Source: Lachnospiraceae bacterium (GTDB taxonomy: Bacteria > Bacillota > Clostridia > Lachnospirales > Lachnospiraceae). From it: a stretch of 45,712 nucleotides of DNA. Shown here piece by piece: positions 32,549 through 45,712 of the stretch. The notes under the pieces are model-generated. The model did not search any database and was not told where the DNA came from. It saw only the letters and a program-made list of their open reading frames with translations. A program made the translations under genes and the position numbers. The stretch is from the NCBI GenBank assembly GCA_015057085.1, contig SVFB01000099.1, positions 1-45,712 on the forward strand, given 5' to 3'. Position 1 is the stretch's first letter; every line of letters starts with the position of its first letter.

Positions 32549-35416
32549 TTAGTATTTCGGTGATGCGAAACCACGGATGTATCTTGCATCAACTGCAATC
32601 TTGCGATAGCCTACGGAATCACCATAATTTCCTTCGATAACCGTAATCATGCCATCTTCACAAGAGACCACGATGCCCACGTGGTTCGGCCACTTGGTGC
32701 AATCGCCTGAACCGTAATCGCTCCAGCAATAGTAGATGATATCGCCGGTCTTTGGAACATAGGCATCATTTTCAATCCAGACACCCATTTCCTGCCATAG
32801 GGCAACCTGTCTACCGCAACTGCATTCAAGCGCTGTCACTGCGGTGTATCCGCACTTGATAAACATCGCTGAAACGAAAGTCGCACACCAGGAATCTTTA
32901 TAGGTTACATTGTATCCGCTGGTTGCTAAATTGTAGGTGTCTACAATGTTTTTATGCTCTTTGCTTCCCTCATCAATGCCAAGATATTTTGCAGCTGCAT
33001 CCACAAGGCGCTGTCTCGCTTGTGCACTGGTCAACTTCTGATCAATCTTTCCACTATTGTAGTAGATGTAATAGAAATTGCCATTTACATATTTGAAATA
33101 TGTAGTGGACTTATTCTTGTTGCGAATATATTTTGTGGCTGCACCATCCTTTGTCATGTAATACAAATAGTTGTTATAAACACGATAGTATGCGCCGCTT
33201 GCGGTTCGAACCTTTCCGCTTTCGTAGTACTTGCTCTTGTACACGCCGGTGAATGCTTTGGCTTCACCGGTATTGTAAGAAATTTGCAGGAGAACTCCAC
33301 CGGATTTCTTGTACCAGTAACCGGTTTTTTCAGCATCCTTCTTTACAATGGAAGCCTTGGCATTTGTTGGATTTACGCTGACATAATACTGGTTTCCGTT
33401 ATCGCCCCAGACTAAGGTGTAATACACTTCAGTGGCATCAGGCTTTTTGTATTTCGTAAGCTTTCCGGCCTTGCTTGCTTTGTAAAGATAGCCCTTGTAA
33501 TAAACATAGTAAGCACTGCTTGCGGTTTTCTTTAAACCATTGTAGTAATAATAGTTCTTATAAACTCCGGAATACTTCGTCGCCTTTCCGGTTTTGTCTG
33601 CCGTGAATAAGTATTTTGAATTCGATACAAAATTCTTGGCAGAAGAATAGGTCTTTACTTTGCCTTTGACAACGGAATAAGTATAGGCCTTTGAGCCATA
33701 GGTGATGCTCAAAACCGTGGTTCCTTTATACACAGATGCGATGCCATCAGAGTTCATCTTGTAGATCACAGCAGATGAATAAGAGGAAGCCTTCGCCGGT
33801 GAAATAATCTTATAAGTAGGAACACCCTTTGAAGTGGTCTTAACTGCCATAAGATATTTGCTCTTTTTGAGCTCGCCGTTGATTGCAAAATAATATTTAC
33901 TATCTAAGAGATTTTTAAAATAACCTGTAAACTCGGTTGCTACACCAGCTTTCGAAATCATATAAGCCACATTATTGTAGATGGTGTAGGTAATGGCGCT
34001 TCCACTTTGGATTTGGCCCTTATAGATGTAGTACTTCGTATCCGAACCGTTGTAAATAGTGCCGATGCGAGTACCGGTGTACTTTGAACTTGAACCGGTG
34101 GAACTGAGCTTTAAAATCAGTGGAGATGAATACTCCGCAGACTTTGCAGGATCCATGATTTGATATTTCCCGATTCCGCTTTTGGTTGCCAAAGTAACAA
34201 TGACAAATTGGTCTTTTAAAATCTTATAATTGCTTAATGAAAAATAATACTTGCTATCCAGCATGTTTTTAAAGTAGCCGGCATAAGCAGTTGCTACACC
34301 ATTTTTTGCCACCTTATAAGCTTTGTTATTGTGAATGGTATAGCGAGTGGAAGTACCGGTGGAAACAACGCCTTCATAAATATAATACTTGTTGGTGCTG
34401 TCTGTATAAATGCCGCCTACACGAGAACCCTTATATTTGGTGGTGATTCCGTTTTCGGATGCATAATAAATAGTCGCATCCGGATAATTGGCTGCTTCAC
34501 TTGGATTGATAATGGTATAGGTAGGATAACCGTTGACTTTTGCATAAGTTGCCAGGATATATTTGCTTTTCAAAATTTTATTGCTTGCGTTCGCAAAGTA
34601 GTATTTGCTATCTGCAAAGTTTTTGAAATATCCGGTAAAGGCAGTAGCCCGGCCTAATTTATCACAGCGATATGCAGTATTATCATAAATTGCATAATAG
34701 ACTTTATCAGAGGTTTTGATCTTACCCTGATAAACATAATACAAAGTTTTGACTCCATCATATAAAATATTGATGCGCTTTGTGCCTGTATCAATGACAC
34801 CCTTTCCGGTGGAATCGCAATGCACAATCATGGTATCACTGTAATCAGCTGACTTTGTAGGATTTACAACCTCGTATGCTGATGCAGCCGTTGAAGCGTC
34901 TTCACTTGTTGCACTATTGCGTCCAAGAAGAATGTAGCAACTCTTTAAAAGAGAACCATTATAGGTGATATTGTATGCGGTTTTATTAATCGGTGTGATG
35001 ATGTAATTTGATTCGGTTGCATCTAGAGGAATATCTTGAACAGGCGTATCATCTTCCACAATCTCATCCACAATTGTCTCGGTTGAATCAGTAGCCTCGG
35101 TTGAATCAGTAGCCTCAGTTGAATCAGTAGCCTCAGTTGAATCAGTGGATTCAGTCGAGTCAGTAGAACCGGTCGAATCAGTAGATTCGTTCGAAACAGT
35201 AGAATCAGTCGAAACAGTAGAATCAGTCGAAACAGTAGATTCGTTCGAAGTGATAGATTCAGTTGAGTCAACAGATGCGGTTGAATTCGTGGATTCCGTA
35301 ACCTCGACAGCACTGCTTGCCTCTGTCGCAAAAAGTGCATCCGGATTTGCAACAGTAGATGAAAGCAATGTCGCAGCAGACAATAAGATCGCTAGATTAT
35401 TCTTAAAAAACTTCAT
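32549..35416 (-). CDS. Large secreted CHAP-domain cell-wall protein
   Basis: The start chosen at 35416 gives a signal peptide (MKFFKNNLAILLSAATLL) behind TTGGAG; a longer frame to 35479 adds an unlikely N-terminus. The 955-residue protein has a Ser/Thr/Asp-rich stalk (about 35-125). It continues with four or more modules of about 110 residues (KYYF...ILKSKYI...YTI.NPS, then YYIY.G and GYFKN), shorter YK-rich repeats, and a C-terminal CHAP amidase/endopeptidase domain (about 810-955). The CHAP domain has the catalytic cysteine in DSWCATFVSAMF and histidine in WPNHVGIVVS. The enzyme would cut peptidoglycan; the repeats probably bind the wall. Confidence 0.82.
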   Translation of the reverse strand: MKFFKNNLAILLSAATLLSSTVANPDALFATEASSAVEVTESTNSTASVDSTESITSNESTVSTDSTVSTDSTVSNESTDSTGSTDSTESTDSTEATDSTEATDSTEATDSTETIVDEIVEDDTPVQDIPLDATESNYIITPINKTAYNITYNGSLLKSCYILLGRNSATSEDASTAASAYEVVNPTKSADYSDTMIVHCDSTGKGVIDTGTKRINILYDGVKTLYYVYQGKIKTSDKVYYAIYDNTAYRCDKLGRATAFTGYFKNFADSKYYFANASNKILKSKYILATYAKVNGYPTYTIINPSEAANYPDATIYYASENGITTKYKGSRVGGIYTDSTNKYYIYEGVVSTGTSTRYTIHNNKAYKVAKNGVATAYAGYFKNMLDSKYYFSLSNYKILKDQFVIVTLATKSGIGKYQIMDPAKSAEYSSPLILKLSSTGSSSKYTGTRIGTIYNGSDTKYYIYKGQIQSGSAITYTIYNNVAYMISKAGVATEFTGYFKNLLDSKYYFAINGELKKSKYLMAVKTTSKGVPTYKIISPAKASSYSSAVIYKMNSDGIASVYKGTTVLSITYGSKAYTYSVVKGKVKTYSSAKNFVSNSKYLFTADKTGKATKYSGVYKNYYYYNGLKKTASSAYYVYYKGYLYKASKAGKLTKYKKPDATEVYYTLVWGDNGNQYYVSVNPTNAKASIVKKDAEKTGYWYKKSGGVLLQISYNTGEAKAFTGVYKSKYYESGKVRTASGAYYRVYNNYLYYMTKDGAATKYIRNKNKSTTYFKYVNGNFYYIYYNSGKIDQKLTSAQARQRLVDAAAKYLGIDEGSKEHKNIVDTYNLATSGYNVTYKDSWCATFVSAMFIKCGYTAVTALECSCGRQVALWQEMGVWIENDAYVPKTGDIIYYCWSDYGSGDCTKWPNHVGIVVSCEDGMITVIEGNYGDSVGYRKIAVDARYIRGFASPKY
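35081..35152 (-). repeat. 18-bp tandem repeat in the stalk of the CHAP protein
   Basis: Four units of GGTTGAATCAGTAGCCTC, starting at 35081, 35099, 35117 and 35135, encode (on the minus strand) a TDSTEA hexapeptide. Flanking degenerate copies extend the Ser/Thr/Asp stalk to about 35290. The length is a multiple of three, so unit gain or loss would change stalk length without a frameshift. Confidence 0.85.
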
Positions 35417-35549
35417 GATAAAACTCCAAAAACTAAAACTGCAAAAACTCCATACATTACAAAAAAGAAATAACATCAAATTAATAGACGTTACTTAAGT
35501 ACTATGATAACAAAAGGTGACAAATAAAGGAAGTCTTTTGGCGAATTTA

Positions 35550-35669: not shown

Positions 35670-38519
35670 ATGAAAAAGAAATTAGCGTCCAAAATCTGTG
35701 CGAGCGTATTAATTGCCGGGGTGATGCTCACGTCGGTGGATATGAATGCGTTTGTTTATGCGGCTGAAATATCAGAATCTGAAGATGTATTGTCCGAAGA
35801 GGTGGAGGAAGACGAGTCTGCCGGATATATTTCAATGGATTCGGATTATAATGCGGCAGAGTACGATGGAGATATAGAAGAAGCCGAGGATGTCGATACT
35901 TTTTTTGACTTAAATACATCTGAAACAGCAGATGCATCTAGTGCTGCATATCCGTCAAGCGATCCGCTGGAATATATGACCGAAAACTATCCGGCAACAA
36001 GACAACAATTCGAAGGAACCTGCTGGGCACATTCCACAATCGCAAATGCGGAATTTAGTTCCATCAGCAATGGCGTTGTCTCCACCGGAGCATCTACTGA
36101 CTTTAGTGAGTATCAATTTGCATATCAGGCATATCATTTTGTAACAGATCCGCTCGGAGGAACAGAAGGCGATTACTATGGCTTTGATGCAGATAATGCC
36201 GGAAGCGAGACCTGGTACAATGCCGGTCATAATTTGATTTTTGTCATCAATACGCTGAATCAATGGGTGGGCGTCGTGAATGAATCCGATGTTCCAACGC
36301 CGGAGGATCTGGAGGAAGGTGTCGCAGATGAATATATTTATGATTCTAATGAAGTCGTAATGACGGACACCCGAATGATAATGATTAAGGATAGCGATGG
36401 AAATCTTATCGACAGTGGAGTAGAAGCAACAAAGGCTGCAATTGTAGCAAATGGAGCAGTGTCTACATCATATTATAGCAATAGCAAATATAGAGGTCCT
36501 GCCGGTACTTCGGAAGAAGTAAATTATTATTGCAATGTAAGCAATACTACAAATCATGCGATTGCAATTGTGGGATGGGATGATAATTATTCTGCAACTA
36601 ATTTCTGGACAGAGGCGCCTATTGACGGAGCCTGGCTCGTGCGAAATAGTTGGTCTTCAACAGCGGAAATGAGCTGCTATAGCTATTTTTGGCTTTCCTA
36701 TGCAGATATGGGATTGGCAAATGTTGTATATGCTATGAATTTTACGGATGAAGATACATATGATAATAACTATCAGTATGATGGAGGAAATTATACAGTT
36801 GGAGGTGGCACTGTATCAAAAACTTCAGTAGCAAATGTCAGTAGCCTGCCGAAAAGTGCAAATGTATTTACAACCACAAATACAACTAAGGATGAGGTGC
36901 TAAAAGCTGTTAATATTTCTTTGCCGGATTATTCAAATGTACATTATCAAATTGATATATACTTAGATCCGCAAGATGATAATCCTTCTAGTGGAACTCA
37001 TGTAGAAAATGCGACAACTATAGGTGATACAACCTATGCCGGATTATATACAATCCCTTTAGCTAATGAAGTAGAATTGGAAGCTTCACAATCATATGCG
37101 GTTGTGGTCACAATGTGGACTCAAACTGATAGTGGAACTTATAAAGTACTATTTGCAGAACGAGAATATGCTTTTCATGGCTGGGATATTATGGCGACGC
37201 AAGTCACCGCAGAAGAAGGGCAGAGCTATCGATATCTAAATGGTAGTTGGAGTTCTATAGCCACATCTGGTAATTACGGAAACTATAGAATAAAGGCCTT
37301 CACTGGTTACGTTGAGCCGGAGGACAATTCTGAATACAGAGTTGTATATGAAGGAAATACCGGTGCGACAGGTTCTATGGATGAAACTGATTATTCGCTT
37401 GGTGTCAATGGAATCGCAGCAGAGTGTGGTTTTGAAAAATCAGGATATCGCTTTATTGGATGGAATACTGAAAAAGATGGAAGTGGAACCACATATCAGC
37501 CGGGGGATGAAATTACAGCCTTAGAGACAGCCGGTAAGATTACGCTGTTTGCACAATGGGTGAATTGCTATAGCCTGGTATTTGATGGAAATGGAAGTAC
37601 ATCCGGAAGTATGGAAACTTTACCGGTAGAAGGTGGACAGATTTATACTTTGCCACAAAATACATACGAGAAGACTAATTATGTATTTTCCGGTTGGAAT
37701 ACGAGTGCTGATGGAAGCGGAACTGCTTATGGGAATCAGATAAACTATACTGCGAATTCTAACAGGACAGACAACTTAATCTTATATGCTCAGTGGACTC
37801 CGGTTGAATATACTCTTTCATACAATTTAAACGGAGGCACAAACGCTTCTGCGAATCCAAAAACATTCACCATCAACAGCAATGTGACCTTGGCGTCTCC
37901 GACAAGAAAAGGTTATTCATTTGGTGGTTGGTATCTGGATTCTTCATATCAGAATCGATTGACCAAAATTAGTTACGCAGCGTTGACATCAGCGGGAAGA
38001 AGCCTCGGAAATATCACGCTCTACGCGAAGTGGACTAAGGTAAAATATACAATCACCTATGTGTTGAACGGTGGCAAAAATAATAGCGCAAACAAGACGG
38101 CCTACTATGTCACCACTACGACATTTACCCTTAAAAATCCTACGCGGACCGGATATACCTTCGCAGGCTGGTATTCGGATGCGAAATTTAAGACCAAGGT
38201 GACCAAGATTACAAAGGGCACTGTTGGAAACAAGAAGCTTTATGCGAAATGGACAGTAAACAAATATACCATCAAATTCAATGGCTACGGCGCAACTTCC
38301 GGCAAGATGTCTAGCCTGACATCACGCAAATACGGAACCACTTATACTCTTACAAAAAATAAATATAAGCGCACCGGCTATGTGTTTAAGGGATGGGCCA
38401 CAAGCAAGGCAAATGCAAAGAAAGGAATTGTGAAGTACAAAAACGGCGCGAAGGTGAAAAACCTTTCCTCAAAAAATGGTGCAACAATTACTTTATATGC
38501 TGTTTGGAAAAAGAAGTAA
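35670..38519 (+). CDS. Secreted papain-like (C1A) peptidase with five InlB B-repeats
   Basis: The 949-residue protein has a signal peptide (to about residue 31), an acidic propeptide-like stretch, and a C1A peptidase domain (about 95-350). Cysteine 118 lies in GTCWAHSTIANAEF, histidine 296 in NHAIAIVGWDD and the asparagine in WLVRNSWS. A beta-rich lectin-like domain (about 370-555) comes next, then five Listeria-Bacteroides repeats from about 560 to the end, each closing with LFAQW, LYAQW, LYAKW or LYAVW. It is an extracellular cysteine protease of a type common in Lachnospiraceae and Clostridia. No sorting signal is seen. Confidence 0.88.
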   Translation: MKKKLASKICASVLIAGVMLTSVDMNAFVYAAEISESEDVLSEEVEEDESAGYISMDSDYNAAEYDGDIEEAEDVDTFFDLNTSETADASSAAYPSSDPLEYMTENYPATRQQFEGTCWAHSTIANAEFSSISNGVVSTGASTDFSEYQFAYQAYHFVTDPLGGTEGDYYGFDADNAGSETWYNAGHNLIFVINTLNQWVGVVNESDVPTPEDLEEGVADEYIYDSNEVVMTDTRMIMIKDSDGNLIDSGVEATKAAIVANGAVSTSYYSNSKYRGPAGTSEEVNYYCNVSNTTNHAIAIVGWDDNYSATNFWTEAPIDGAWLVRNSWSSTAEMSCYSYFWLSYADMGLANVVYAMNFTDEDTYDNNYQYDGGNYTVGGGTVSKTSVANVSSLPKSANVFTTTNTTKDEVLKAVNISLPDYSNVHYQIDIYLDPQDDNPSSGTHVENATTIGDTTYAGLYTIPLANEVELEASQSYAVVVTMWTQTDSGTYKVLFAEREYAFHGWDIMATQVTAEEGQSYRYLNGSWSSIATSGNYGNYRIKAFTGYVEPEDNSEYRVVYEGNTGATGSMDETDYSLGVNGIAAECGFEKSGYRFIGWNTEKDGSGTTYQPGDEITALETAGKITLFAQWVNCYSLVFDGNGSTSGSMETLPVEGGQIYTLPQNTYEKTNYVFSGWNTSADGSGTAYGNQINYTANSNRTDNLILYAQWTPVEYTLSYNLNGGTNASANPKTFTINSNVTLASPTRKGYSFGGWYLDSSYQNRLTKISYAALTSAGRSLGNITLYAKWTKVKYTITYVLNGGKNNSANKTAYYVTTTTFTLKNPTRTGYTFAGWYSDAKFKTKVTKITKGTVGNKKLYAKWTVNKYTIKFNGYGATSGKMSSLTSRKYGTTYTLTKNKYKRTGYVFKGWATSKANAKKGIVKYKNGAKVKNLSSKNGATITLYAVWKKK

Positions 38520-38599: not shown

Positions 38600-40093
38600 A
38601 TGGAACGTGAAACAAAAAAAGTAACAAAGAAAAAGAAAACACAGAAGCAAAAGATTGTAGAGCAATTCCTGTTTATGTTGGATTGGCTTATATTGGCAGT
38701 GACTCTTGCTGCCGCAACAATGGTTCTGGTGAAAGTTCAGGTGATGGGAATTTTACCGGCGAAGTTTTTCGTGCCAATCGTCATCCTGTTTCTCATTTTG
38801 CTGGGATTGGGAGTCTTCTTTACAATTAAAAAGAAAGGCCAGATTCCGATTATCATCGTATCAGTGATTATGTTGGGCATTCTCATTTACGGTGCGCTTG
38901 CAATCGGTAAACTGGATAAGACCTTAAACGAACTGAACAATGTAACCACAAAATCCATGGTATTTTCAGTTGTGGTTCGCGATGATGACCCGGCTAAGTC
39001 ATTATCCGATATCGATGGATATGATGTGGGATATTACAAGAATGAAGAGAAGATTTACGATGCAAACAAGAAGTTAAAGTCTGAACTTGGCAAGGTTTCA
39101 GTCAACATGAAATCATATGATAGTCAGGATGCAATCGTAGAATCATTGCTGAATTCAAAATCCTTAGGCGCAATTTTCCTGAACCAGACAAGCATTGCCT
39201 TGATTTCGGATAGTGAAGAATACGAAAACTTTGAAGAAGAAACCAGAGTAATTGGAACGGTTACAATTACATATCAAGTGAAAGTGAACGATAACTCTGA
39301 TGCAGAATTGGGTGATACCCTTGTAGTCTATATGAGTGGTATCGATACCTATGGCGCAGTCGACATCACAAGCCGAAGCGATGTAAACATCCTGGCCTTT
39401 ATCAATGTAAAGACCGGAAAGATTCAGCTAATCAGCACACCGCGTGACTATTATGTGCAATGTCCTCTTCATGATAATGCATATGACAAGCTGACCAACT
39501 GCGGTCTGTATGGAATCGATTGCTCCGAGGATACCTTGGAACAATTATATGGTGGCGATTTTGAAATCGATTATTATTTACGCGTTAACTTCAGCGGATT
39601 CATTGATATCATTGATGAGTTAGGCGGCGTAGATGTGACAAACGAAACTGCATTTACATCAGTTGATGGAATGTATTTCGAGGCCGGCGACTTGCACCTC
39701 GACGGACAAGCTGCGCTTTACTTCGCCCGTGAGCGTAAAGCATTTGCAGCCGGAGACATTATGCGTGCAAAGCACCAGATGGCTGTAATCTCAGCAATGG
39801 TGAAGAAATGTACATCATCAAAAGAGATACTAACCAATTACGCAAATATCTTAGATGCAGTTTCAGAATGTTTCCAGACCGATATGCCGGCAAGCATCAT
39901 TTATCAATTGGTAAATCATCAGCTTAGCAGCGGAACCTCATGGGATATTCAGTCATACACCTTAGAAGGTGAAGGCACCAGATCAACAGAAGCATATTCG
40001 CAGTACGGACGCAGCACCTATGTCATGCTGCAAGACGCAGATATGATTGCAGAAGCAAAGAAGTTGATTGATGAAGTCTTAAGCGGAAATTAA
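38600..40093 (+). CDS. LytR-CpsA-Psr (LCP) family wall-polymer ligase
   Basis: The 497-residue protein has a basic N-terminus, three transmembrane helices (about 22-50, 55-77, 82-103) and an external part. This holds an accessory domain (about 110-235) and the LCP domain (about 240-420) with YMSGIDTYG, the phosphate-binding arginine in STPRDYYVQ, SGFIDIIDELGGVDVTN and YFARERKAF. LCP enzymes move undecaprenyl-linked polymers such as teichoic acid or capsule onto peptidoglycan. It has its own terminator, followed by the first repeat array. Confidence 0.92.
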   Translation: MERETKKVTKKKKTQKQKIVEQFLFMLDWLILAVTLAAATMVLVKVQVMGILPAKFFVPIVILFLILLGLGVFFTIKKKGQIPIIIVSVIMLGILIYGALAIGKLDKTLNELNNVTTKSMVFSVVVRDDDPAKSLSDIDGYDVGYYKNEEKIYDANKKLKSELGKVSVNMKSYDSQDAIVESLLNSKSLGAIFLNQTSIALISDSEEYENFEEETRVIGTVTITYQVKVNDNSDAELGDTLVVYMSGIDTYGAVDITSRSDVNILAFINVKTGKIQLISTPRDYYVQCPLHDNAYDKLTNCGLYGIDCSEDTLEQLYGGDFEIDYYLRVNFSGFIDIIDELGGVDVTNETAFTSVDGMYFEAGDLHLDGQAALYFARERKAFAAGDIMRAKHQMAVISAMVKKCTSSKEILTNYANILDAVSECFQTDMPASIIYQLVNHQLSSGTSWDIQSYTLEGEGTRSTEAYSQYGRSTYVMLQDADMIAEAKKLIDEVLSGN

Positions 40094-40120
40094 AAAACAA
40101 ATAACAAATGAAAAAGAAGC

Positions 40121-40157
40121 AAAAGACCTGTGAACCGATGTGTTCACAGGTCTTTTT
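40121..40157 (+). terminator. Terminator of the LCP gene
   Basis: AAAAGACCTGTGAAC pairs with GTTCACAGGTCTTTT, a near-perfect 15-bp stem with a T-run. Confidence 0.9.
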
Positions 40158-40185
40158 AGTGAAATCAAGGTGCAAGCGGAAGAGT

Positions 40186-40597
40186 GGTCAGCAGAACCAA
40201 ACGAAAAAGGAAAATCTGCTGACTAATTCTTCTCCGCCCCGGAGAGCGGTCAGCAGAAACAAGCGAAAAAGGAAAATCTGCTGACCATTCTTTGCTGGTC
40301 CGGGAGAGCGGTCAGCAGAACCAAGCGAAAAGGGAAAAGTTGCTGACCATTCTTCCCCCGCCCGTGAGAACGGTCAGCAGAACCAAACGAAAAGGGAAAC
40401 TCTGCTGACCAATCTTCCCCCGCCCGTGAGAACGGTCAGCAGAACCAAGCGGAAAAGGGAAACTCTGCTGACCAATCCCTTCAAACCAAGGAGAGCGGTC
40501 AGCAGAACCAAGCAAAAAGGGAAAATCTGCTGACCATTCTTTCCCAGTCCAGGAGAACGGTCAGCAGAAGCAAAAGAAAATAGAAAAGTTGCTGACC
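40186..40597 (+). repeat. Array 1: seven 62-bp hairpin repeats
   Basis: GGTCAGCAG starts at 40186, 40248, 40310, 40372, 40434, 40497 and 40559, a period of 62 bp (once 63). Each unit is GGTCAGCAGA, about 20 purine-rich bases, then TCTGCTGACC and a linker ending in GAGAGC or GAGAAC. The arms form a stem in every unit. The array lies between the LCP terminator and the transglutaminase gene. No coding frame is maintained, since 62 is not a multiple of three. Confidence 0.95.
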
Positions 40598-40740
40598 AAT
40601 CCATCCCACCCCACCCACATTTTATAATATTAAGAATCTTGCTTGGAAATATTAAGAAAACCTTAAAACACTTTTGGTAAGAAAATGTTATATTATCCTT
40701 GAAAGCGGAATTACCCGCAAATTTAGAAGGAGAAAAGCTT

Positions 40741-41934
40741 ATGAGTGAGATTATGAAAGAGAGCGCTAACACATCTGTGAATGAAGCTGGCGCAAAAAAG
40801 AAAAACAAAAATGGAGCTATCATTGCTTTGATCGTGTGCGTGGCATGTCTTCTGGTGATGAACGGTTGCTTAATTGCTTTCTCGGTTATTTCAAATCAGA
40901 AGGTAAGCAAGTTTATTGATGATGAGCGTGAGCGTCAGGCAAAGGAGCTTGAGGGTGAGGGATACATAGAAGATGGATATGTAGTTGGTGATCAGTACGA
41001 GATTAAAAGTACAAAGGCTATCTCTGATGCATATATTGCAGGGGATTCCTCTTCTCTATCAGGAAATGATTTGTCTACTTATGAGATGGCATCTGCTGTA
41101 ATTGACGAAGTAATTAAGGATGGCATGAGCGATTATGAGAAGGAAGTTGCAATCTATGATTGGATGTGCAAGAACATTTCTACTTCAGAGGGTGGTGCAA
41201 TCGTAGTTCCTGGTGTTTCTTCTACAGAAGCTGTTTCTACACCTTATGGTGTATTAACCGGTAAGCAGGCTGTTTGTGTTGGATATGCAACAACTTTCCG
41301 TTTATTAATGAACATGCTCGATATTGATGTCCACATTGTACATAATGATTATCACAGCTGGGATTTGGTTCATATCGGAGACAGCTGGTATCATGTAGAT
41401 ATCTATTCTGATTCTAGCACGGGAAATTATGCAAACTTCAATATGACAGATTCTATGGCACGCAATGGTCATGAATGGAATGATGAAGGATATCTTCCAA
41501 TTGCTGATAGCTATGAATATTGCTACGCATACCAGAATGCGGTTGCTTTGGATGATATTACTACAATTCCTGCTACTGTATACGAAGCTGCTTACGGTGT
41601 ACATGAAAACCATGCTTGGTATTACAACATTGGTGCATACGACGACACCAAGATTGCTGAAATCAGCATCATGGCAGAGATTATGAATGGTGTATTTGAA
41701 TCAGGAGAAGATATCAACCTTTCAAACAAGAACATTGAAACCAATGTCATTCCTGTAGATGAGAATACTACTTTAGTTGCCTTGAATCTTATCGATTATT
41801 CATCCGGTGAATCAGGCGGAGATGTAGATCGTGAAGCAATCTACTCACAGATGATTGAATTAATCAACCAGACATTTGGCACAAACTTCTATGGCGGTGA
41901 TTATTATTATGATTACTCTGAAGGACGTGGCTAA
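40741..41934 (+). CDS. Membrane-anchored transglutaminase-like protein
   Basis: The ATG at 40741 follows AGAAGGAG; an upstream in-frame ATG at 40699 has no site. The 397-residue protein has one N-terminal transmembrane helix (AIIALIVCVACLLVMNGCLIAF) with a basic cytoplasmic start, a linker, and an external transglutaminase-like domain (about 110-260). Cysteine 179 lies in GKQAVCVGYATTF, and the histidine and aspartate in HSWDLVHIGDSWYHVDIYSD, a complete Cys-His-Asp triad. Such domains act as proteases or crosslinkers at the cell surface. It opens the envelope gene group after array 1. Confidence 0.82.
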   Translation: MSEIMKESANTSVNEAGAKKKNKNGAIIALIVCVACLLVMNGCLIAFSVISNQKVSKFIDDERERQAKELEGEGYIEDGYVVGDQYEIKSTKAISDAYIAGDSSSLSGNDLSTYEMASAVIDEVIKDGMSDYEKEVAIYDWMCKNISTSEGGAIVVPGVSSTEAVSTPYGVLTGKQAVCVGYATTFRLLMNMLDIDVHIVHNDYHSWDLVHIGDSWYHVDIYSDSSTGNYANFNMTDSMARNGHEWNDEGYLPIADSYEYCYAYQNAVALDDITTIPATVYEAAYGVHENHAWYYNIGAYDDTKIAEISIMAEIMNGVFESGEDINLSNKNIETNVIPVDENTTLVALNLIDYSSGESGGDVDREAIYSQMIELINQTFGTNFYGGDYYYDYSEGRG

Positions 41935-41955
41935 CATTCGACGAGGAGTGTGCGT

Positions 41956-42516
41956 ATGAGACACAATAGAGCAACAGATAAACATAATGACTTTATGAAA
42001 AAGATTGCTGCGACCGTTATGGTCGCAGCCCTTTCCGTTGTAACTTTGGTGGGATGCGGTTCCGGTAACAGCGATCATTTGACCGGAGACGAATTAAATG
42101 ACTTACTTTCAACTGTTGGCGAGAAGATTGTATCAGAAGATACTACACTTTCAGAAATGACAGTAGATACTTCTGCCGGCGATGATGCAGAATTAAATTT
42201 CACTGCGGCTTGCGATGCGGATTACAGCAAAATCGAAGGCTATTATCATGCATATGCTTCAGATGGAACAGCCGGCGAGATTACGATTATCTGTGTAAAG
42301 AAAAGTGATGATGTGACATCTGTTATGAATTCACTGAAATCACATATTGATACCCGTCGAGGCACAATGGAGAATTATTCTCCGGAACAGGTGGAAATCG
42401 TAGACAAAGCAGTTGTCACACATGTGGGCTGCTACGTTGGACTTTTCATTTCCGAAAAGAGTGGCCTTGATAAGAACAATTTTGTAGCGGAGTTAGAAGC
42501 AAATGGTATTCAGTAG
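41956..42516 (+). CDS. DUF4358-like lipoprotein
   Basis: The ATG at 41956 lies seven bases after GAGGAG. The 186-residue protein has a lipoprotein signal (FMKKIAATVMVAALS, then VTLVGC with the lipobox cysteine) and an acidic external domain. The domain matches my recollection of DUF4358 (YSPEQVEIVDKAVVTHVGCY, VGLFISE). Such lipoproteins often accompany MBOAT and DHHW proteins. It overlaps the MBOAT gene by 14 bases, so the two are coupled. Confidence 0.75.
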   Translation: MRHNRATDKHNDFMKKIAATVMVAALSVVTLVGCGSGNSDHLTGDELNDLLSTVGEKIVSEDTTLSEMTVDTSAGDDAELNFTAACDADYSKIEGYYHAYASDGTAGEITIICVKKSDDVTSVMNSLKSHIDTRRGTMENYSPEQVEIVDKAVVTHVGCYVGLFISEKSGLDKNNFVAELEANGIQ

Positions 42517-43906
42517 CATTACATTTTTATTTGTATTTTTGCCACTGACATTGATTATTTATTACCTATGTCCTCAAAAGTTAAAGAATATCTGGCTGTT
42601 GATTACAAGCCTTGTGTTCTATGCTTTCGGAGAACCGATGTATATTATCCTCCTCATATCCTCCATAGTAGTAAACTACGGAAGCGGACTTTTGATTGGA
42701 CGGGCGAGGGATAAAGCTTCTCCGGGAATGGAGAAGCTTGTTCTCGTTTTGAGTCTGGTATTAAATCTCGGTGCATTAGGCGTATTTAAATATTTGGATT
42801 TGGGAATCGCATTGGCTTCCTCTGTGGCAAAACTCTTTGGAAGCACCGGCTTTATGGCAGTTGGCTTGGCGCTTCCAATCGGTATTTCATTCTTCACATT
42901 CCAGGGACTTTCCTATGTGATTGATGTGTACCGCGGAAAAGTACAGGTGCAGAAAAATCCACTATATTTTGGTATGTATATCGCATTGTTCCCACAGCTG
43001 ATTGCGGGACCAATCGTGCGTTACAGTGATGTAGAAACCGAAATTGCTACGCGAAAAATCACAGCCGATATGTTGGGCGATGGCATGGAGCGTTTCATCA
43101 TGGGCCTTTGCAAAAAGGTTTTGATTGCAAATATTTGCGGTGAAATGGTGACCTCTCTGGCGGCAGCCTCAAAGGGTGGAAACGGAACTGTTTGCATGGC
43201 ATGGATTTCTGCGATTGCTTATATGCTTCAAATTTATTTTGATTTCTCCGGATATTCGGATATGGCAATCGGAATCGGCTTGATGCTGGGATTCCATTTC
43301 CCGGAGAACTTCCTACATCCGTATGAATCCAAAAATATTACGGAATTCTGGAACAGATGGCATATCACTTTAAGTTCATTCTTTAAGGAATATGTGTACA
43401 TTCCGTTGGGCGGTAATCGAAAAGGTGTTGCAAGACAAATCTTTAATTTGTTTATTGTATGGGCGCTCACGGGATTATGGCATGGAGCCGGTGCAAACTT
43501 CATTGCCTGGGGAATTTATTATTTCCTGTTCCTTGTTTTAGAAAAATTTGTATTGATGAAATATTGCGAGAAATGGCCGACGGTCATCAAGCATATCTAC
43601 ACCTTAATCGTAGTCTTGTTTGGCTGGGTGCTTTTCTCAAATACCACATGGGAAGGACTGGTTACGCAGCTGAAGGCGATGTTTGGAATCGGAGTTTCCT
43701 TCATCAGCGGAGCAAGCAAATTCTATGGCGCAGAATATGGAATCTTGCTCATCATCTTCGCATTGTTTGCGACCACTCTTCCAAAGAAATTATATGATAA
43801 GTGTCCGGGCGTGGTTCGAATTCTCTTGGGATTAATTGGATTTGGATTGTCTGTAGCACTTTTGATCAACGGAAGTTACAATCCGTTCTTGTACTTTAGA
43901 TTCTAA
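42503..43906 (+). CDS. MBOAT-family O-acyltransferase (AlgI/DltB-like)
   Basis: The 467-residue polytopic membrane protein has about ten helices and the MBOAT signatures FFTFQGLSYVIDVYRG, GPIVRYSDV, FDFSGYSDMAIGIGLMLGF, ITEFWNRWHITLSSFFKEYV and the catalytic histidine 327 in LWHGAGANFIAWG. It passes acyl groups across the membrane for O-acetylation of an external polymer. The DHHW/AlgX-like protein encoded next would be the extracellular partner that places the group. The neighbouring LCP protein suggests a wall polysaccharide as substrate. Confidence 0.93.
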   Translation: MVFSSITFLFVFLPLTLIIYYLCPQKLKNIWLLITSLVFYAFGEPMYIILLISSIVVNYGSGLLIGRARDKASPGMEKLVLVLSLVLNLGALGVFKYLDLGIALASSVAKLFGSTGFMAVGLALPIGISFFTFQGLSYVIDVYRGKVQVQKNPLYFGMYIALFPQLIAGPIVRYSDVETEIATRKITADMLGDGMERFIMGLCKKVLIANICGEMVTSLAAASKGGNGTVCMAWISAIAYMLQIYFDFSGYSDMAIGIGLMLGFHFPENFLHPYESKNITEFWNRWHITLSSFFKEYVYIPLGGNRKGVARQIFNLFIVWALTGLWHGAGANFIAWGIYYFLFLVLEKFVLMKYCEKWPTVIKHIYTLIVVLFGWVLFSNTTWEGLVTQLKAMFGIGVSFISGASKFYGAEYGILLIIFALFATTLPKKLYDKCPGVVRILLGLIGFGLSVALLINGSYNPFLYFRF

Positions 43907-43934
43907 AACAGATGCACAATTTTAGGGAAACGTT

Positions 43935-45035
43935 ATGAAGAAAATATATTTTGGACTGTTCCTTGGCTTGATGGTGCTAGGAGGGATTAGCATCTTCGCC
44001 ACGGGACAAAAAGAATTCTCGTCTAACGAGAATCGATATCTTAAAACAGTATCCGACATCAAATCCACAAGCGATATTGAAGGCACCTTGGCCGATCAAT
44101 TCCCGCTTCGTGATGGATGGCTGACAGTCGCATCAGGTGCGCGATATCTCACCGGCGCCCGCGAAATCAACGATACCTACATCGGTAAGGACGGATACTT
44201 GTTTGACAAATGCAGCGAGAATGATTTCTCAATGATGCAATACAAAAACAATTTGTCTTATCTCGGAAAGTTTGCAGGCAGTTATGAGGTGGATGACATC
44301 AGCCTGGTTCTGGTGCCATCACCATATACCATTCTTTCCGAAAAACTTCCGGATAATGCGCAAGCATATGATGCTGCTCAGAAATATAAGGCGGCCGAAA
44401 CTGCCATGAGTGGAAGTGCAAACGTAGTAGATTTGCGCGATACCCTCGAGTGCCTCTCCCGAGAGACACAAGTGTATTACAGAACCGATCATCACTGGAC
44501 GACCCGCGCAGCCTACGCAGCTTATCTATCCGCAGTCTGTGGATACGATTACGAAAAAGCAGTCGACGAAGCCGTAAACTTTGAAGGCTTAACCGCTGTC
44601 AGCGAAGAATTTCACGGTACTCTTTATTCGAGAGTTCTTCTTCGCGACAAAGTTTACGACACCATCGACGCGCTCGACCTTGAAAAAGCCGGGCTTAGCG
44701 AAATCAGCGAGCAACTCTATGACGCATCGAAGCTGGAAACAAAAGACAAATATGCATATTTCCTCGGTGGAAATACAGGCCGAATGGATATCAAAGGCAC
44801 CGGCGAAGGCAATCTCCTCCTAATCAAAGATTCCTTCGCAAACTGCATGGTGCCATTCCTCGCCCAGAAATATGCCAACATCACCATCGTGGATTTGCGT
44901 TATCTCAGCGAAGAAATTGCACATCTCATGGAAAACGGTGTAGATGGGGAAAGCTACAATGATGTGATCGTGCTATACGAAATGAGTAATTTCGCGGATG
45001 ATGTAAACATCTATAAGCTTGCAAGAGGCTTATAA
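43935..45035 (+). CDS. DHHW-family protein (AlgX/AlgJ-like acetylation partner)
   Basis: The 366-residue protein has an N-terminal signal anchor (YFGLFLGLMVLGGISIFA), then FSSNENRYLKT, GYLFDKC and the DHHW motif YRTDHHWTT with residues 185-188. A C-terminal LLIKDSFANCMVPFLAQ block corresponds to the SGNH-type serine region. It is expected to act outside the membrane as the acetyltransferase partner of the MBOAT protein. Only 29 bases separate the two genes. The stop is followed within a few bases by array 2, with no terminator between. Confidence 0.88.
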   Translation: MKKIYFGLFLGLMVLGGISIFATGQKEFSSNENRYLKTVSDIKSTSDIEGTLADQFPLRDGWLTVASGARYLTGAREINDTYIGKDGYLFDKCSENDFSMMQYKNNLSYLGKFAGSYEVDDISLVLVPSPYTILSEKLPDNAQAYDAAQKYKAAETAMSGSANVVDLRDTLECLSRETQVYYRTDHHWTTRAAYAAYLSAVCGYDYEKAVDEAVNFEGLTAVSEEFHGTLYSRVLLRDKVYDTIDALDLEKAGLSEISEQLYDASKLETKDKYAYFLGGNTGRMDIKGTGEGNLLLIKDSFANCMVPFLAQKYANITIVDLRYLSEEIAHLMENGVDGESYNDVIVLYEMSNFADDVNIYKLARGL

Positions 45036-45045
45036 AACTAAAAAG

Positions 45046-45555
45046 AAAATCTGCTGACGAATTTTTGCCCGGGCGGGAGAGCGGTCAGCAGAGACAGGAT
45101 AAAAAGGAAAAATTGCTGACCAATCTTTGCCGGGGTGCGGGAGCGGTCAGCAAAATATTTTATAAAAGGAAAAGTTGCTGACCAATCTTCGCCAGGTCGG
45201 GAGAGCGGTCAGCAGAAACAGGATAAAAAGGAAAAGTCGCTGACCAATCTTCGCCAAGGTGCGAGAGCGGTCAGCAGAATATTTTATAAAAGGAAAATCT
45301 GCTGACTAATTTTTGCCAGGGAGTGAGAGCGGTCAGCAAAATATTTTATAAAAGGAAAAGTTGCTGACGAATCTTTGCTGGGGAGTGAGAGCGGTCAGCA
45401 GAAACAAGCGAAAAAAGAAAATCTGCTGACGAACCTTTGCCAGGGAGTGAGAGCGGTCAGCAGAAACAAGCGAAAAAAGAAAATCTGCTGACCAATCTTT
45501 GCTAGGGTGGGAGAACGGTCATCAGAAAACGAATAAAAAGGAAAAATTGCTGACC
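45046..45555 (+). repeat. Array 2: eight 62-bp hairpin repeats plus a leading half unit
   Basis: After a half unit (right arm CTGCTGAC at 45051), GGTCAGCA (GGTCATCA in the last unit) starts at 45083, 45145, 45207, 45269, 45331, 45393, 45455 and 45517, a period of exactly 62 bp throughout. Units match array 1 in sequence and orientation. Two units with left arm GGTCAGCAA have right arm TTGCTGAC, keeping the pairing. The loops fall into three types (CAAGCGAAAAA, CAGGATAAAAAGG, TATTTTATAAAAGG). The array follows the DHHW gene directly and is cut by an IS256-like element. Confidence 0.95.
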
Positions 45556-45571
45556 AATCTTTGCGGGGGAG

Positions 45572-45712
45572 GGTAACGTCTATATAATGGTGTAAATTCA
45601 AATAATTATTTAAAAGAGCCAAAGGCTCAACCTTTAGGTATAATAGAATCACCACAATCCAAATAATACCGGAGGTAGAACACAATGGCTCAACTCAATA
45701 TTACTTTAAATC
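45572..45712 (+). mobile_element. Left end of an IS256-family insertion sequence
   Basis: The stretch from about 45572 (GGTAACGTCTATATAATG, then GTGTAAA) resembles the IS256 terminal inverted repeat, in which GTCCGTATAAT and GTGTAAA are characteristic. It begins inside the linker of a 62-bp unit, where GAGAGC would be expected. An inner GAGCC-AAA-GGCTC hairpin and a TATAAT box follow. The element runs off the window. Confidence 0.6.
45685..45712 (+). CDS. IS256-family transposase, N-terminus only
   Basis: An ATG at 45685 follows GGAGG (45671-45675). The nine visible residues, MAQLNITLN, match the usual start of Lachnospiraceae IS256-type (mutator) transposases. The gene continues beyond the window. 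Confidence 0.55.

Follow-up and report, generated by a model that had tools for sequence, protein, structure and literature searches.

Repetitive extragenic palindromic (REP) sequences each form a short hairpin of their own. Bacterial interspersed mosaic elements (BIMEs) are built from them and, as parts of one account describe (PMC2817692), are intergenic, regularly spaced, alternate in orientation, gather in tandem clusters and serve as targets for insertion sequences (IS). REP doublets forming hairpins (REPINs) are tied, in the portions of PMC3116915 that concern them, to REP-associated tyrosine transposases (RAYTs), and compensatory changes are reported there as common. Excerpts of PMC1525189 document IS insertion into REP palindromes, including by ISRm5 of the IS256 family (5/7 in its table), while part of PMC10132070 deals with elements of the IS1202 family that keep a constant distance from a protein-binding site, dif/pdif, with a contact to bound XerC suggested by its authors. 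Here, we describe two arrays of a 62-bp repeat in a stretch of 45,712 nt (hereafter, the window; contig SVFB01000099.1, all coordinates on the forward strand) from a Lachnospiraceae bacterium. With moderate confidence, we regard these arrays as double-stranded DNA sites bound by a putative protein and used as IS insertion targets, BIME-like in character and devoid of a GTAG tag or a RAYT partner.

Array anatomy and conserved cores

The arrays occupy the following positions:

40186..40597, forward strand: array A, seven units with a period of 62 bp (63 in one case); a unit consists of GGTCAGCA-N23-TGCTGACC and a 23-bp linker
45039..45059, forward strand: half unit opening array B, TAAAAAGAAAATCTGCTGACG, a few bases past the stop codon that ends at 45035
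45083..45555, forward strand: array B, eight units, the first starting at 45083 and the last at 45517, with 62 bp in 7/7 intervals

Units of array A start at 40186, 40248, 40310, 40372, 40434, 40497 and 40559, that is, in steps of 62, 62, 62, 62, 63 and 62 bp. A previous sequence-only reading of this DNA had proposed two arrays, of seven and eight and a half units, in one orientation and on one plan, and this is borne out: there are seven units in array A and eight plus the half unit in array B, all on one strand and of the same layout. The strict 62-bp period that it had claimed holds for every step of array B and is broken by the single 63-bp step of array A. Several loop types do recur in mixed order, as it had described, and its statement that the repeat encodes no protein agrees with the arrays sitting between long open frames. 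Its rejection of a locus of clustered regularly interspaced short palindromic repeats (CRISPR) fits the repeat anatomy, cas genes not having been searched for: instead of near-identical repeats with unrelated unique spacers, the loops and linkers are variants of one consensus.

We infer that the host is a Roseburia, because its same-genus relative G078 is Roseburia sp. 831b; 20 kb of the second contig of G078 are 100% identical to a plasmid record of that strain. In the host genome, the two-arm pattern of the units, which is palindromic and is therefore seen on both strands, occurs at 50 sites, against 0 for a reversed-pattern control. A covariance model built from the 15 window units gave 111 matches at E<=1 (the last three with E above 0.01) when the best 150 of 2467 first-look candidates were scored. 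Together, these two results exclude chance. The matches fall into 20 array pieces, or 16 arrays once pieces split by IS are joined, and, at 111 x 62 bp in 2.79 Mb, make up ~0.25% of the genome. The arrays are intergenic, dispersed over many loci and regular in their alternating orientation, with a neighbour spacing of 62 bp in 83/86 pairs, 63 bp in two and 60 bp in one.

A script recovered 106 of these units, of which 103 entered the composition and pairing tests (the pairing tests leaving out one unit truncated at a contig end and two whose arms lie 32 bp apart). Over the 103 units, the pairwise difference was 5% at the 16 core positions versus 31% at the other 46. The conserved part is an 8-bp core, GGTCAGCA, which alternates with its inverse, the core centres lying 31 bp apart (three helical turns) on both sides. 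Core flanks share RAGA two bases outside, as GAGARC and as AAGATT read inverted. All 75 exact genome matches of the extended half-site GAGANCGGTCAGCA lie inside arrays; the extended site therefore lacks the scattered single copies of a classical regulator.

The unit pattern had 0 matches in viral contigs and one match in 84,980 genomes (a set possibly without the host genome), with no array in the 1500 bases around it. The covariance model found nothing at E<=0.001 in the other 61 genomes of the genus and nothing in 24 genomes of the same order, in searches whose filters can lose weak matches and in which at most the best 87 to 89 candidates per genome were scored.

Arrays in relatives and helical spacing

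Relatives were sampled in pieces, by tandem-repeat searches and by an alternating k-mer detector (0 hits in shuffled sequence), so that absence there means little. Sequence pieces from four further Roseburia genomes contain arrays with this layout and with unrelated cores. The core of G017 (assembly 89% complete), TTGGGTGTA, forms 41 units and is found in none of the other 61 genomes of the genus; a further G017 array, in L178 (ATACATACC / GGTATGTAT), was read by eye. G034, which we take to be R. hominis A2-183, has the cores AGACCCG and CAGACC (L140, L141), and its array at L140:10334 lies downstream of an ATP-binding cassette transporter gene with no long frame over it. Near the AGACCCG array, at L140:10815-11076, there is also a 77-bp tandem repeat with several nested hairpins. 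The core AGTCAAC of G003 occurs in 52- and 61-bp arrays, and the core AAATGGGC of Roseburia sp. 831b occurs at two candidate array places of four sites each. Strain 831b also has 52-bp arrays (L127:2782-3244 and L132:8162-8434), whose boxes, CACCTAAAG and AATGGAGT, are by eye not inverted copies of each other. The 12-base sequence AAACACCTAAAG occurs both in a box of these 52-bp arrays and in the IS of the window genome, at its right end. In 400 kb of G076, presumably R. intestinalis, two four-site hits lie on one piece (L241), neither of them an evident array. A literature search, with most subscription journals outside its reach, returned no paper on such arrays in Roseburia, and the terms searched for are absent from a comparative-genomics paper on the genus (PMC7478625).

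In G017, with cores allowed at most one mismatch, 43/43 neighbouring pairs have the core and its inverse 29 or 30 bp apart, and the linker measures 21, 32, 53 or 73 bp in 35/36 cases, the exception (48 bp) lying at a contig end. Helical tests were run on hand-picked sets and afterwards on an unselected detector set, comprising same-strand neighbour distances of all hits in relatives (7-mers, four or more alternations). The 22 same-strand spacings of this set, counted as distinct per genome, lie near multiples of 10.3-10.4 bp (p 2.5e-5 versus uniform lengths; mean cosine 0.66), the best period in a 7-16 bp scan being 10.35. With one genome left out at a time, the helical fit kept a p of at most 0.00095. 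As a control, 16 other tandem periods gave p 0.40; this list was hand-typed and included duplicates and two periods of the host genome, and at least one of its values, 51 (L141:345-494), could come from a diverged array of this type.

IS256-type elements at the arrays

Array B runs into a mobile element at the right edge of the window:

45556..45571, forward strand: rest of the linker of the last array B unit, the final 8 bp of which (45564-45571), CGGGGGAG, are the target duplication of the IS
45572..45712, forward strand: IS256-type element inside which the contig stops; its left end (GGTAACGTC...) is present and includes a GGAGG and an open frame that begins ATG GCT CAA CTC

Four copies of this left end are present in the host genome, the one in the window included, and 4/4 lie in arrays. 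The duplication CGGGGGAG recurs at the start of contig C52, and both IS ends, with terminal inverted repeats and matching 8-bp duplications, could be recovered at 4/4 sites (C110/C52, C68/C46, C95/C113 and C115/C64). At 3/4 sites the duplication might equally be read as 9 bp, because a G follows. The duplications cover unit positions 47-54 or 48-55, with centres at 50.5-51.5, where the linker has its symmetry axis (51). One insertion is oriented opposite to the other three. A search for PF00872 (Mutator-type transposase) in the host assembly gave no match, and the body of the transposase gene is therefore missing from it. A similar IS end in Lachnospira eligens precedes a gene annotated as an IS256 family transposase. 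Of the 20 array pieces of the host, 12 show none of these IS ends, several of the 12 stopping at contig ends.

Seven further left ends, of two related IS types, were found in G017. Type IS-A starts exactly 20 bp after TACAT in 3/3 copies, TACAT being a word that occurs about once per kb and strand in G017 and was recognised as a core afterwards; the first of these copies lies in the measured ACATATAA array, another in the by-eye array, and the third adjoins an isolated TACAT. Type IS-B lies beside ACACCCA in 4/4 copies, at 7, 27, 28 and 37 bp, which corresponds to one helical phase (p 0.0095); three copies are in measured arrays and one is beside a single hairpin unit. Overall, 11/11 left ends examined in the host genome and G017 lie at a core, at a fixed distance or helical phase: eight in measured arrays and one in the by-eye array, while the remaining two adjoin an isolated unit or core. 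These 11 do not include a match in G079, which aligns to a different part of the query. The three IS types have ends similar to each other, while their cores differ.

Stem pairing

The sequence-only reading had taken compensatory changes in the arms as a sign of selection on an RNA or cruciform stem. The A-U case on which it relied is present, since the units at 45145 and 45331 join the left arm GGTCAGCAA to the right arm TTGCTGAC, yet the same T also stands opposite five CAG arms in the window (as TTG four times and TCG once). Among the 15 window units, a two-sided change affects 1/9 stem pairs, and the observed covariation score was reached by 97/500 shuffles. Over the 103 units of the host genome, 0/9 stem pairs were paired more often than after shuffling, and the end pairs are often broken (pair 1-39 in 26/103 units, pair 9-31 in 22/103). 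The quoted cases look like chance combinations of two independently varying positions, and we reject compensatory RNA pairing, for which neither the window units nor the genome units give a stem signal. An Rfam search over 39800-45712 had no match at gathering score, and its two sub-threshold hits both lie outside the arrays. What gained support is the alternative that had been offered alongside, namely a DNA-binding role on one face, with 62 bp close to six helical turns.

Genomic surroundings

The genes next to the arrays run in the same direction as the arrays themselves:

38600..40093, forward strand: LytR_cpsA_psr-family gene, upstream of array A
40121..40158, forward strand: hairpin and T-run between the LytR gene and array A, by eye an intrinsic terminator
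40699..41934, forward strand: transglutaminase-like gene, downstream of array A
43935..45035, forward strand: DHHW/AlgX-like gene, directly upstream of array B

Farther upstream, an 18/36/54-bp tandem repeat (35085-35239) lies close to where a large CHAP-domain gene (32549-35479, minus strand) begins, and a 949-aa gene (35670-38519) encodes five List_Bact_rpt (Flg_new) repeats and a lectin-like domain. Elsewhere in the host genome, a second dispersed palindromic repeat (GCGCGAGATTTGCGTCAGC..., TCTCAGTCGGA...) was found in L039, L042, L045 and L050 (C38, C48, C64 and C113) and in L058; in C38 it sits inside an array unit.

Weighing the explanations

We favour a protein on double-stranded DNA because length is conserved without sequence, linkers keep to helical values, stem covariation is lacking in the host genome and IS insertion is phased. 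The GGTCAGCA core, with RAGA two bases outside, alternates with its inverted copy such that all cores come to lie on one face of the helix, where a putative sequence-specific protein would bind them and build a regular complex along the array. This class of arrays recurs in several Roseburia genomes, each with a core sequence of its own and a spacing near whole helical turns. Related IS256-type elements would then land in arrays at a fixed distance or helical phase from a core, the landing point in the window genome being the symmetry axis of the linker. Such arrays may either benefit the host, through chromosome organisation or transcription boundaries, or be mainly selfish repeats that draw IS away from genes.

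Several observations weigh against this interpretation. Some of the 22 spacings depend on others, 124 and 145 in G017 being sums, and few independent families contribute; several values derive from weak, possibly coding four-site hits. Detector spacings of 75 (twice), 112, 138 and 161 bp are off the helical grid, as is the 75-bp spacing of the measured ACATATAA array in G017. With one modal value per family (five values), p was 0.007 at 10.3-10.5 and the best period was 12.55; a set of 12 values, enlarged by further intergenic tandem periods, gave p 0.001 and a best period of 12.70. The 52-bp arrays of Roseburia sp. 831b belong to the hand-picked and 12-value sets and lie outside the detector set. 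One L. eligens IS copy examined, of two places, has no such core alongside. As for pairing, the loop pair 12-28 of the host genome pairs above shuffles (p 0.009, 12 pairs tested), and two units fold strongly together as RNA (z -4.7), as palindromes would. In G017 (36 units, 35 distinct), covariation is seen at pair 9-31 (p 0.001) and not at pair 1-39. Shuffles are also exceeded there by pairs -5/45 (p below 0.0005), 13-27 (p 0.01) and, when G-U is counted, 11-29 (p 0.007); such signals can arise from the two unit subtypes that the G017 set contains.

The strand of the arrays is to be counted here as well. With positive GC skew (arrays masked) taken as the leading strand, the purine-rich strand is the leading one in 15/20 array pieces of the host and 10/10 in G017, which also fits a transcript or a replication-linked process; with IS-split pieces joined, the host count is 11/16. 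In R. hominis, in a count made without that masking, it is 2/3 arrays. The arrays of minority orientation (C3, C16, C30, C48 and C50; L035, L036, L038, L042 and L043) have additional flanking repeats in common, some of which occur in C46 too. The C50 array is bracketed by inverted copies, much like a component of some larger composite element. The bias could reflect transcription, replication or the mode of insertion.

If the arrays were a structured RNA, they would be co-transcribed with their neighbours, and hairpins with purine-rich loops would bind a protein (for example, a CsrA-like one at GGA) or set mRNA stability. The strand bias would suit this, the purine-rich leading strand being mostly the gene-sense strand; GGA-containing loops are common, and the two-unit fold and the G017 covariation point the same way. 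Even so, we deem it improbable, given the absence of stem covariation over 103 units with their often broken end pairs, a spacing that tracks the DNA helix across unpaired linkers, units without GGA in the loop, and the opposite orientation of 5/20 host pieces and 1/3 R. hominis arrays. Single-strand transposition could give a strand bias too. This brings in selfish palindromes akin to REPINs and BIMEs: a transposase acting in trans would spread them as single-stranded hairpins, they would play no part for the host, and the fixed length of the mobile unit would keep their spacing. Each unit occurs in only one of the 62 genus genomes searched, and the repeats are dispersed between genes, are IS targets and alternate as regularly as BIMEs do in the part of PMC2817692 that treats them.

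We nevertheless consider selfish spread of this kind rather unlikely, and its RAYT-driven form is spoken against by the transposase genes, with the reservation that both assemblies are incomplete. The host has one Y1 (RAYT-like) transposase gene (258 aa, C26 584-1360, L058), whose 4553-bp contig bears no array core, and G017, with its 41 units, has 0 Y1_Tnp matches. The C26 gene is followed by a GGGGACGGGG...CCGTCCCC palindrome. A GTAG foot is also lacking, and it would be left unexplained why linkers of a single array vary by roughly whole turns. Finally, the arrays might be made and maintained for the IS256-type element as a safe target, with the transposase itself recognising the core. The 11/11 left ends at cores in two genomes would suit this, as would the pairing of each of the two G017 IS types with one core type. 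Three IS types with similar ends nonetheless go with different cores, 12/20 array pieces lack an IS end (several of them running up to contig ends), and an IS would not explain the multiplication of units, so that we give this explanation only a slim chance.

Returning to protein-bound DNA sites, spacing that follows the helical repeat across species with unrelated cores points to a bound protein, and the IS elements can be regarded as natural probes of the putative complex, because their insertion points keep one distance or helical phase. It is tempting to go further and suppose a fast-diversifying site system of Roseburia, with core words peculiar to each species, helix-phased genome-wide arrays, a matching fast-evolving binding protein, and cognate IS256-type elements homing to the complex at a fixed helical phase. 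We put this forward tentatively, as a possibility somewhat easier to doubt than to accept. If true, this would amount to a hitherto undescribed array-forming nucleoprotein system of bacteria.

Comparison with known systems

The constancy of insertion recalls the IS1202 family, at least in that part of PMC10132070: Roseburia IS also sit at a constant distance from a recognised, putatively protein-bound site. They belong to another IS family than the elements at dif/pdif, and the counterpart of XerC is putative. As with the REP-targeting IS in the excerpts of PMC1525189, insertion occurs into a dispersed palindromic repeat, on its symmetry axis or close to it. Unlike there, the Roseburia target is a core array without a REP tag, and one G017 IS type inserts at several distances that share one helical phase.

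With REPINs, as portrayed in portions of PMC3116915, the arrays share two inverted conserved ends at a fixed distance, a variable spacer and tandem clusters; neither the RAYT tie nor the compensatory changes were found in the window genome. Like BIMEs, on the partial account of PMC2817692, they are intergenic, present at many loci, built of regularly spaced alternating elements in tandem clusters, and targeted by IS. Extragenic, regularly alternating repeats at many loci are thus common to REPs, BIMEs, REPINs and the arrays. The differences lie in the repeated word, an 8-bp core that is not itself a hairpin (inspection of the consensus reveals no internal palindrome), in a spacing near whole helical turns, and in the Roseburia host. 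Where a GTAG/CGTC foot would be expected, the 103 units have GAGARC before the core and AATCTT after the inverted core. REP, BIME and REPIN arrays are tied to RAYT transposases in the literature, as far as these partial accounts go, and here a common gut genus has the same layout with another core and without that transposase. Overall, although they carry neither the tag nor the RAYT tie by which REPs, BIMEs and REPINs are defined, the Roseburia arrays work like BIMEs in layout and as targets of IS.

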